DNA from: an uncultured Ectothiorhodospiraceae bacterium
GTDB taxonomy: Bacteria > Pseudomonadota > Gammaproteobacteria > Nitrococcales > Nitrococcaceae
Assembly: GCA_913061005.1 (NCBI GenBank)
Contig: CAJXSH010000004.1
Location: 62,001 to 126,000 of the forward strand
Length of the DNA stretch: 64,000 nucleotides
Direction: 5' to 3'
Below are positions 20,979 through 34,447 of this stretch, in pieces. The position numbers were made by a program, and so were the translations under genes. How positions within the stretch are numbered: the first letter of the stretch is position 1; each line of letters opens with the position of its first letter. The notes below the pieces were generated by a model. The model searched no databases. It was not told where the DNA came from and saw only the letters and a list, made by a program, of their open reading frames with translations.

Positions 20979-21046
20979 TGCTGTTCTCCCCAAATGGGCC
21001 GGGATACCCCGCTGCCCGTGGATGGTCTTTAACCCGACAGGGGTAA

Positions 21047-21062
21047 TGCAGGGAGCGTGCCA
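21047..21062 (-). promoter_or_regulatory. sigma-54 promoter of glnK-amt
   Basis: On the minus strand the sequence TGGCACGCTCCCTGCA matches the sigma-54 consensus TGGCACG-N4-TTGCA except for one base, with the invariant GG and GC ten bases apart. The predicted start is near 21036, giving a leader of about 58 nt. Confidence 0.85.
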
Positions 21063-21126
21063 ACCGCCGATCAAACCGCCATCGAAGGGGACGAGCCGCC
21101 GGCGATGGCCGCCAGGCCATGGGGTT

Positions 21127-21143
21127 TGCACCAGACTGGATCA
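21127..21143. promoter_or_regulatory. NtrC-like site proximal to glnK
   Basis: TGCACC-AGACT-GGATCA matches the NtrC dyad TGCACC-N5-GGTGCA at 10 of 12 arm positions. Its centre is about 99 bp upstream of the predicted glnK start. Confidence 0.65.
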
Positions 21144-21159
21144 GGCGCCGTTGGTCGGA

Positions 21160-21176
21160 TGCACCACAAAAGGGCA
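21160..21176. promoter_or_regulatory. NtrC-like site distal to glnK
   Basis: TGCACC-ACAAA-AGGGCA has a perfect left arm and four of six matches in the right arm. The centre is 33 bp (about three helical turns) from the proximal site and about 132 bp upstream of the predicted start. Confidence 0.6.
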
Positions 21177-21240
21177 AAACATGGCTTGGGCACGGCCGCC
21201 GGCCCGCTTACACTGGAGAAAACGACACGGAGGAGCGGTC

Positions 21241-21513
21241 ATGCTCGACCCGAAACAGTTTGATGAAATGGCCAAGCGCTTCTCGGAGAGCCTGCCCAGC
21301 GGTCTTCGGGACATGCAGCAAGAGGTGGAGAAAAACGCGCGTGTGGCCCTGCAAAGCGCATTCAGCCGGATGGAGCTGGTCACCCGCGAAGAGTTCGACG
21401 CCCAGGCCAAGGTGCTGGCCCGCACCCGGGAGCGCCTCGAGGCCCTGGAGGCCCGGGTCGCCGCACTAGAGGGTGGTGACAACGCCGTGGCAGAGACCGA
21501 TACCAAGGACTGA
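21241..21513 (+). CDS. ubiK: ubiquinone biosynthesis accessory factor UbiK (YqiC)
   Basis: The 90-residue protein of the BMFP family helps assemble the soluble ubiquinone-synthesis complex together with UbiJ. Visible parts are MLDPKQFDEMAKRFSESLP, the amphipathic helix EKNARVALQSAFSRMELVTREEFD, and a C-terminal coiled coil LARTRERLEALEARVAALE. GGAGGAG lies five bases before the ATG; the much longer open frame upstream covers the glnK promoter and is rejected. It is followed by comM after 46 bp, a common pairing in gammaproteobacteria. Confidence 0.92.
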   Translation: MLDPKQFDEMAKRFSESLPSGLRDMQQEVEKNARVALQSAFSRMELVTREEFDAQAKVLARTRERLEALEARVAALEGGDNAVAETDTKD

Positions 21514-21559
21514 TCACGTCAGACTACCGTGATCGCTGAGCACAGGGAGGTGCCAAGCG

Positions 21560-33092: not shown

Positions 33093-33101
33093 GGGTTCTC
33101 C

Positions 33102-33956
33102 TCAGGTATTCCAGATACGCGGCACACAGATCGGCCGGCCCAACAGGACCGGCCGCAGGGCCCGCCAGGCCTCGAGCCTGAGGGCATAGGCCTGAAGCGC
33201 GCCGGCGCCCCGCCAACGCAGCACCAGCAGGTCATCGACAAGGGTTGCCGCCCACTCGCCGGGCAGATGGGCAAGCGCTTCACGGAGCATGGTCAAAAGC
33301 GCCTTATCCGCCGGGGCGGCGATCAACGTGGCCATGGCCTGGGCGCCTCCCAGGCCCCATTGGCCGGTCAGGGTCGGCGAGCCACCGCGCAGACGGGCGT
33401 GCTCAAGCAGCAACGGCACACCGTCGCGCCAGACGGTCATGCGTTGCCGAAAACAGCCCTGGTCGAACGGATATCCACCGGCCGGCCGACCCAGGCAGTT
33501 GAGCTCCCAGGCCAGGCAGCGTGCTCCGGCCTGCAAATCGATGCGCGTTGTCGAGCTGGCAATTGCCCCGGCAAAGGCAATCTGCTCCTGGGGGAACCAC
33601 TCCAGCGTGCCACCGGGTGCCACACCGAGGCGCTGCTCGAGGACGGCCTCATCGCCGAGACTGCGGTAGAACTTGGTGGCACCGGGGCTGGTGACCACGG
33701 CCCAGGCGTTAGGATCGACCGCTAGATCCACCTCCAGCTGATCGCCGCCAACCACTCCGCCCGGCGGATGCAAGACATAGGTATGGCAGGGATCGCCCTC
33801 GGGGTGGAATGGGCGCTGGATGCGCAAGGGCCCCTCATGACGGCGTTCGGTCAATCCGGTGACCGCACCGCAGCGGGCGTAACGCAGCGCCAGATGGGCC
33901 CGCCAGCGCGGATGCCGCCGCTCGGCCGGGGCAATCAGATCGGCCCGGGCCGCCAC
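33102..33956 (-). CDS. ureD: urease accessory protein UreD (UreH)
   Basis: UreD docks on apo-urease and recruits UreF and UreG for nickel insertion. The 284-residue protein has the family motifs HPPGGVVGGDQLEVDLAVD, SPGATKFYRS and WFPQEQIAFAGA. The start is GTG 33956, whose first base is the last base of the preceding TAG (TAGTG), so it is coupled to the small His-rich protein upstream. It is the first recognised ure gene of the operon. Confidence 0.94.
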   Translation of the reverse strand: MAARADLIAPAERRHPRWRAHLALRYARCGAVTGLTERRHEGPLRIQRPFHPEGDPCHTYVLHPPGGVVGGDQLEVDLAVDPNAWAVVTSPGATKFYRSLGDEAVLEQRLGVAPGGTLEWFPQEQIAFAGAIASSTTRIDLQAGARCLAWELNCLGRPAGGYPFDQGCFRQRMTVWRDGVPLLLEHARLRGGSPTLTGQWGLGGAQAMATLIAAPADKALLTMLREALAHLPGEWAATLVDDLLVLRWRGAGALQAYALRLEAWRALRPVLLGRPICVPRIWNT

Positions 33957-34261
33957 TAAAACAGACCGGCGATCAGCCCGAAACCCATCACCGCCAGTGC
34001 GCCCGCCGTGGCGCCGAGCGCCAATCCCGGGCCAGGCGCAGACCGCAATCGCCGCAGCATGAAGGCGCCCACACCGGCCGCCACCGCCGCCAGCACAAGC
34101 GCTGCGCCGAGGCCATGCGCGGGTAGCCCGAGTACCGTCTGCCCATCGGCAAGATGCCAGTGGACCAGCATCAGCGGATGATCATGCCCGCCGACGGCAT
34201 GGGCCAGAGCGCCGCCCGGGAGCATGACGAAAAGGGCTGGCCAGAGGCGAAATCGTTGCAT
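33956..34261 (-). CDS. small His-rich membrane protein at the head of the urease operon
   Basis: The 101-residue product has an N-terminal signal-like helix ending in GGALA, then HAVGGHDHPLMLVHWH with five histidines (or six counting the residue after the predicted cleavage), and two further hydrophobic segments (about residues 48-68 and 80-100) separated by a basic loop RRLR. ATG 34261 has GGAG at about eight bases. The N-terminal histidine cluster after a signal peptide recalls HupE/UreJ nickel permeases, but the protein is only half their length. A role in nickel supply is inferred; I do not recognise the family. Confidence 0.7.
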   Translation of the reverse strand: MQRFRLWPALFVMLPGGALAHAVGGHDHPLMLVHWHLADGQTVLGLPAHGLGAALVLAAVAAGVGAFMLRRLRSAPGPGLALGATAGALAVMGFGLIAGLF

Positions 34262-34307
34262 GGTTGTCTCTCCATCAGTCTGAAAGGATTGCTGACACCG
34301 GATGGGG

Positions 34308-34323
34308 AGCAAGGCCCGTGCCA
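34308..34323 (-). promoter_or_regulatory. sigma-54 promoter of the urease operon
   Basis: The minus-strand sequence TGGCACGGGCCTTGCT is a perfect match to the sigma-54 consensus TGGCACG-N4-TTGCW. The predicted start is near 34297, giving a 36-nt leader before the first gene at 34261. Confidence 0.9.
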
Positions 34324-34400
34324 TGTCCGGCAGATGGGGGCTTAAAACCGCACCGGCGCGGTATCCTCGGCACAATGTCGGTGCGTCGGGCGGCGAGCCG

Positions 34401-34417
34401 TGCACCCGATTGGGGCT
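34401..34417. promoter_or_regulatory. NtrC-like site proximal to the urease operon
   Basis: TGCACC-CGATT-GGGGCT has a perfect left arm and four of six matches on the right. Its centre is about 112 bp upstream of the predicted start. Confidence 0.6.
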
Positions 34418-34430
34418 TTTGACGAGTCGA

Positions 34431-34447
34431 TGCCCCAACTGTGTGCA
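34431..34447. promoter_or_regulatory. NtrC-like site distal to the urease operon
   Basis: TGCCCC-AACTG-TGTGCA matches ten of twelve arm positions of the NtrC dyad, centred 30 bp from the proximal site and about -142 from the predicted start. Confidence 0.65.

Follow-up and report, generated by a model that had tools for sequence, protein, structure and literature searches.

The glnK-amt, urtABCDE and urease operons of an uncultured Ectothiorhodospiraceae gammaproteobacterium lie together in one 64-kb stretch of DNA (the window, G000:C4:62001-126000, from a 1.65-Mb, 37-contig draft genome that is 84.7% complete) and are very probably direct members of a single nitrogen-regulation (Ntr) regulon under NtrC and sigma-54, a reading that rests on sequence comparison. 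From the same promoters, their orthologues and those of glnA, we consider it likely that selection confines gammaproteobacterial NtrC enhancers to a single helical face of the sigma-54 promoter across about 12 turns (-65 to -195, sparsely at both ends), that dyads are gained and lost mostly in whole-turn steps, and that the resulting lattice records, through evolution, the helical repeat that the loop DNA has in vivo. The three-operon system, as predicted here, is a textbook Ntr regulon and expected biology; what the analysis adds is the wider regulon, the helical-face rule and ureX, a conserved leader gene before the urease genes.

A common promoter architecture at three nitrogen operons

Each operon is preceded by a -24/-12 element, which we scored against the sigma-54 consensus TGGCACGNNNNTTGCW (16 positions, including N), and by 17-bp dyads resembling the NtrC consensus TGCACCANNNTGGTGCA (14 scored positions):

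21047 to 21062, minus strand: sigma-54 -24/-12 element of glnK-amt, TGGCACGCTCCCTGCA, 15/16 against the consensus
21127 to 21143, minus strand: NtrC-like dyad of glnK-amt, centre -98, 12/14
21160 to 21176, minus strand: NtrC-like dyad of glnK-amt, centre -131, 11/14, 33 bp from the proximal dyad
28779 to 28794, minus strand: sigma-54 -24/-12 element of urtABCDE, TGGTACGCAATCTGCT, 14/16 against the consensus
28857 to 28873, minus strand: NtrC-like dyad of urtA, centre -96, 9/14, weak, with a single strong half-site
28888 to 28904, minus strand: NtrC-like dyad of urtA, centre -127, 11/14, 31 bp from the dyad at -96
34308 to 34323, minus strand: sigma-54 -24/-12 element of the urease operon, TGGCACGGGCCTTGCT, 16/16 against the consensus
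34369 to 34385, minus strand: third NtrC-like dyad of the urease promoter, centre -79, 10/14, off the main phase
34401 to 34417, minus strand: NtrC-like dyad of the urease operon, centre -111, 11/14
34431 to 34447, minus strand: NtrC-like dyad of the urease operon, centre -141, 11/14, 30 bp from the dyad at -111

The three elements, whose positions and scores the initial annotation had already given, were read directly from the sequence, and all have GG at -24 and GC at -12 with invariant spacing. They are the only exact matches in the window to the search pattern TGGYACGNNNNYTGCW (three, as against a mean of 0.07 in shuffled sequence; none of 100 shuffles reaches three). Two positions of this pattern were relaxed after the sites had been inspected, and we therefore rely also on genomic context and on orthologues, beyond the count of exact matches. 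The draft genome as a whole contains five exact matches, compared with three for a reversed control pattern, and all five lie upstream of nitrogen genes.

The initial annotation had also described two dyads per promoter. All six are where it placed them, with the spacings of 33, 31 and 30 bp that it gave and with centres shifted by 1 bp through a different choice of +1, but it had passed over the third urease dyad at -79. Its remark that such sites were seen nowhere else is true within the window but not beyond it, as two further promoters in the genome have the same architecture. Of 18,172 sampled positions, 89 are preceded by two dyads scoring 10/14 or better and 1,330 by two scoring 9/14 or better (both strands, with the real sites kept in). 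The dyads are intergenic if the gene starts that we judge likely are used; some longer, mechanically called open reading frames overlap them. A scan of the genome with the rigid NtrC pattern TGCACNNNNNNNGGTGCA, allowing one mismatch, gave 18 matches against 14 for its control and recovered none of the sites of the three promoters; the pattern was badly built, its 18 positions being one more than the 17-bp dyad. The extra dyad close to the urease promoter (-79 here) has a counterpart at -64 in the congeners G008 and G010, and could be a governor-like site or chance.

Regulators and a wider predicted regulon

A regulon of this kind had been expected to come with rpoN and ntrBC in the same genome, and all three genes are found: rpoN as a 503-aa open frame on a 5.9-kb contig (PF04552, E 5.1e-68), ntrC as the sole protein above the cut-off of its family model (TIGR01818, 726.2 bits against 558.6), and ntrB as a histidine-kinase gene between glnA and ntrC, in the order glnA-ntrB-ntrC. 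The fourth exact sigma-54 element of the genome precedes glnA(-ntrBC), with dyads at -129 and -98. The fifth precedes the gene for the substrate-binding protein of an amino-acid-type ATP-binding cassette (ABC) transporter, a protein that resembles AapJ:

L024:3684-5981 (G000:C5), minus strand: gene for the AapJ-like substrate-binding protein, with a permease gene next in order; sigma-54 element present, dyad centres -128 and -97 (the latter 10/14)

At all five promoters the members of a dyad pair lie 30-33 bp apart. The regulon would be wider than the three operons, extending to glnA-ntrBC and to this transporter, and amino-acid uptake is probably part of it. The proposal that ammonium uptake, urea uptake and urea hydrolysis form one nitrogen-starvation regulon is, as a prediction, supported by the presence of the regulators, by the architecture at glnA and by conservation in orthologues.

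In the mechanism that we propose, NtrB would phosphorylate NtrC when nitrogen is short, and NtrC dimers would bind the two dyads observed about 95-145 bp upstream. As is expected from the NtrC and sigma-54 families, NtrC would then form an ATPase ring, loop to the closed complex of RNA polymerase and sigma-54 at -24/-12 and open it with ATP. The outcome would be joint switching of ammonium uptake, urea uptake, urea hydrolysis, glutamine synthetase with ntrBC and one amino-acid-type ABC transporter. The dyads lie statistically mostly on one helical face, in steps of about 10.8 bp, presumably owing to the shortness and torsional stiffness of the loop; the phase rule agrees with a short loop in which the two ends have to face each other.

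Conservation across relatives

Sigma-54 elements in relatives were scored out of 12, with a threshold of at least 10/12. Among the 14 genus genomes searched (own included), ureD occurs in six, and all six have an element of 11-12/12 before ureX. The five congeners have a urease dyad at -107 or -108 (compare -111 here), of which only G008 adds a distal dyad near -141 (at -139, 10/14). Elements of 10-12/12 precede urtA in all five of these urease-bearing congeners, and in G008 and G010 they are accompanied by urtA dyads of 10/14 at -98 and 11-12/14 at -129. Further afield, an element reaching the threshold lies within 800 bp of amt at all 30 loci examined (out of 49 genomes with an amt match), compared with 87 of 600 shuffles and one of the 30 opposite strands; for named urtA relatives the corresponding figures are 54/79, 182/1,580 and 7/79 (L099 was omitted, its upstream region being too short). 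Two or more dyads accompany 128 of 186 sigma-54 promoters, as against 1 of 930 shuffles. Of the outcomes that the initial annotation had named as refuting the regulon, none that sequence can address was observed. Elements and dyads in orthologous promoters stand well above both shuffles and opposite strands.

The urea genes and glnK-amt are close together here and in G008 and G010. In G006 and G012, by comparison, hundreds of kilobases separate the urea genes from amt, and in G013 they are on a different contig. Of the 14 genus genomes, some of them incomplete, 8 gave no ureD. The cluster of urea genes seems to be mobile in this genus. The urease promoters of G006, G012 and G013 retain the element despite their separation from amt.

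A helical lattice of NtrC-like dyads

We scanned for dyads from -205 to -60, taking promoters with an element of at least 10/12. The training set comprised 148 promoters (73 urtA, 42 glnK, 28 glnA and 5 ureX). We left out matches that had low bit scores, that began beyond residue 60 of the query or that had fewer than 200 bases upstream; removal of 11 duplicates reduced 255 regions to 244, of which 96 were set aside because their element scored below 10/12. A neighbouring amt was not demanded for the glnK rows, and L296 (104 bases) was omitted from urtA. The 276 dyads of this set are periodic relative to the sigma-54 element, with a period of 10.85 bp (R 0.60).

Before any new regions were fetched, we fixed the prediction that neither period nor phase would change in them and that 70% or more of their dyads would lie no further than a quarter turn from this lattice. 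The held-out set consisted of the first 100 glnK-amt regions in list order among the matches given without a locus, omitting G002 (already used), G392 and G174 (short upstream) and G291 and G242 (no reason recorded); some of its genomes had supplied a urtA promoter to the training set. After 62 regions had been set aside (61 with no element or one below 10/12, one for length), 38 promoters with 64 dyads remained, and 53 of these dyads (82.8%) were in phase, as predicted. The corresponding z of 6.2 assumes independent dyads, which these are not. With stricter thresholds, 77.5% of 40 and 76.9% of 26 dyads were in phase. A freely fitted period was somewhat shorter in the new set (10.65, 10.45 and 10.40 bp at the three thresholds).

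The earlier remark that the dyad spacing at the three operons is close to three helical turns generalizes: when the training promoters are counted too, the 186 promoters of urtA, glnK-amt, glnA and urease have 340 dyads, and 287 of these deviate by no more than a quarter turn from a lattice with a period of about 10.8 bp. Eighty scrambled motifs (at least 5 of 7 half-site positions different, relaxed thresholds, at least 150 sites each) reached R 0.33 at most (median 0.13), the highest value coming from a motif that contains TGCACC. This control replaced an earlier one of 60 motifs with 1-62 sites, in which motifs with at least 20 sites had reached R 0.43-0.64, as high as the real value of 0.595; those sets were small and had not been filtered for likeness to the real motif.

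The period is 10.82 bp over promoters (bootstrap 10.73-10.91) and 10.88 bp over architectures (10.75-11.00). By subset it is 10.91 (10.72-11.09) for urtA, 10.63 (10.45-10.81) for glnK, 10.57 (10.24-10.88) for the new glnK promoters and 10.43 (9.80-10.87; 10 architectures) for glnA; because the subsets differ, we do not claim an exact lattice period. Three sites of our own genome lie just outside the quarter turn (urtA -127, by 2.8 bp off the lattice; urease -111 and -79, by 2.9 and 3.4 bp). In the genus, 46 of 57 glnK, ureX and glnA dyads are in phase (these rows are part of the training set). The spacing of dyads in the 186 pooled promoters has a separate peak at 13 bp (20 cases), probably an overlap artefact of the self-complementary TGCA.

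Alternative explanations

Several results weigh against direct control of these operons by NtrC and sigma-54, and they bear on two other ways of reading the promoters. It is scarcely credible that the elements are chance matches in GC-rich DNA and that the operons are run from sigma-70 promoters. The consensus sequences used for sigma-54 and NtrC were not fitted to mapped sites; with one mismatch allowed, the window holds five matches where 2.37 are expected, a weak excess that 9 of 100 shuffles equal or surpass; the reversed pattern finds its own three matches in the genome; and the proximal urtA dyad reaches 9/14. Outside close relatives the element is patchy, at or above threshold in 38 of 100 class-level glnK-amt regions and in 73 of 149 pooled urtA regions (7 of 149 on the opposite strand), so that the architecture is not universal beyond them. 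Upstream of ureD outside the genus there is no excess at all: 3 of the 17 regions examined reach 10/12, all at more than 650 bp (four weak ureD matches, L128, L129, L131 and L132, were left out), as do 131 of 460 shuffles in a pooled run that included the six genus regions. We therefore claim direct urease control for the genus only. Against chance stand the three exact window matches, found with the loosened pattern, the placement of every exact genome match directly upstream of nitrogen genes, conservation in orthologues and the pairing of the dyads. It is somewhat less far-fetched, if still highly improbable, that the sigma-54 promoters are real but are driven by another enhancer-binding protein: four further proteins of the same genome fall below the cut-off of the ntrC model with scores of 272-412 bits, and other activators thus exist. 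Yet the dyads match the NtrC consensus and recur at glnA-ntrBC, the classic NtrC target, and a single protein exceeds the ntrC cut-off.

For the lattice, the competing account is that it reflects the shared ancestry of a few architectures, or cooperativity between dyads only, instead of selection for facing the promoter. Related promoters do have positions in common, the glnA subset has few architectures and a wide period interval, and neighbouring dyads favour certain distances from each other, 74 of 169 being 30-33 bp apart. The phase nevertheless persists when each architecture is represented by one promoter (100 architectures, 209 dyads), with R 0.53 where 1,000 sets jittered by 0-10 bp reach 0.24 at most, and when only the best dyad per architecture is kept (R 0.59, maximum 0.31 in 2,000 sets). 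With unique gene-position pairs it exceeds 2,000 of 2,000 random sets. Dyads also occupy different turns in different species of the genus: the urtA pair is at -129/-98 in G008 and G010 but at -107/-76 in G006 and G012 (the -107 site of G006 scoring 9/14). All of these comparisons stop short of a full phylogenetic model. We regard ancestry or cooperativity as an unlikely source of the lattice, and selection for one helical face as the better account.

The leader gene ureX and the setting of the operons

The urease operon begins with a gene that we name ureX:

33956 to 34261, minus strand: ureX, 101 aa, first gene of the urease operon, with an orthologue before ureD in all six genus genomes that have ureD (L133-L138)

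Its product has an apparent signal peptide, hydrophobic stretches and an invariant H21, H28 and HWH (34-36; alignment A1), and would probably be membrane-bound. It has no Pfam match at E up to 1 and no NCBIfam match at E up to 0.001; identification as a HupE/UreJ nickel permease was rejected, as no family model matched. A ureX profile run against 369 genomes of the class gave, besides its own, four weak matches (E 4.5e-4 to 0.009), two of them with an internal stop, and our own genome has one weak second match. We take these weak matches to be noise, which leaves no convincing ureX beyond the genus. That the protein serves nickel supply is no more than a guess.

On the minus strand the order is ureX-ureD-A-B-C-E-F-G, then urtA-B-C-D-E, then glnK-amt, with two plus-strand genes between urtABCDE and glnK-amt, one ComM-like (Mg_chelatase family) and one resembling ubiK by eye. 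The family assignments are as follows:

28923 to 33956, minus strand: ureD, ureA, ureB, ureC, ureE, ureF and ureG (PF01774, PF00547, PF00699, PF00449/PF01979, PF02814/PF05194, PF01730 and TIGR00101)
23043 to 28722, minus strand: urtA, urtB, urtC, urtD and urtE, urea ABC transporter (TIGR03407, TIGR03409, TIGR03408, TIGR03411 and TIGR03410, each above cut-off)
20640 to 20978, minus strand: glnK, P-II protein of 112 aa (NCBIfam NF007946, E 3.8e-53, 179 bits, slightly below the cut-off of 181)
19380 to 20615, minus strand: amt, ammonium transporter of the marine subtype (TIGR03644, 669.4 bits, above cut-off)

The window has a G+C content of 66%. Its closest named relative in our scan is an uncultured Ectothiorhodospiraceae metagenome-assembled genome (CAJXND010000027.1; 90% UrtA identity), and the genus-mate genomes listed, some of them incomplete, measure 1.2-2.2 Mb. 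The host probably belongs to a small-genome, salt-loving (halophilic) lineage.

Significance and comparison with known systems

The analysis provides such a lineage with a concrete nitrogen-starvation regulon, including predicted direct control of urease and an unannotated leader gene. The wider result touches on a long-standing question in sigma-54 activation: although enhancers in laboratory constructs can act at distances of many hundreds of base pairs, NtrC sites in nature largely keep to the helix. If the helical-face rule is true, these promoters would serve as a ruler for the twist of DNA inside cells, lineages (for example, halophiles and others) could be compared for the helical repeat of their loop DNA, and a 5-bp shift would mark a changed promoter.

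The enterobacterial Ntr regulon, with glnAp2 as its model promoter, combines a sigma-54 element with paired upstream NtrC dyads and has glnA-ntrB-ntrC and glnK-amt among its members; the system described here resembles it in all of these features. It differs in that urease and the urt transporter are predicted to be direct members, whereas the urease of Klebsiella is reached through NAC.

Control of urease by NtrC or sigma-54 is already supported or predicted in other bacteria. In Pseudomonas stutzeri A1501, ure genes are reported to fall in an ntrC mutant, and a putative NtrC site is placed before ureE (PMC8443478), not before a ureX-ureD operon as here; 'urt' does not occur in the main text of the study. 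A genome-wide prediction of sigma-54 regulons, in the part that we draw on, places urease genes under sigma-54 in Pseudomonadota, with enrichment predominantly in the alpha and beta classes (PMC12316311); our host, by comparison, is a gammaproteobacterium. A similar overall setting is described for a pair of Spiribacter strains, halophiles with small genomes, sigma-54 and GlnLG, of which one carries a urease cluster with urea transport and the other has no urease (PMC3832224); the account of that cluster, as far as it is drawn on here, does not extend to its regulation. From this likeness the present host may be a Spiribacter or a close neighbour.

Among the matches listed in the openly licensed literature, we recognized no comparative study of NtrC facing. 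One review, in the passages concerned, considers facing perhaps less relevant at glnALG and describes dependence on the face in a system with two NtrC sites, citing nifLA (PMC7408454). Our pooled comparative data, in contrast, do show facing; glnA alone is weak evidence. The closest precedent for the lattice is found in the LuxO/sigma-54 qrr enhancers of Vibrio: the loop lengths of 61 enhancers, which range from about 80 to 120 bp, are reported to group at intervals of about 11 bp (PMC4740811). The steps of about 11 bp are alike in the two systems, but the lattice reported here concerns NtrC, spans four gene sets and 186 promoters with dyads from about -65 to -195, and was tested on new promoters.

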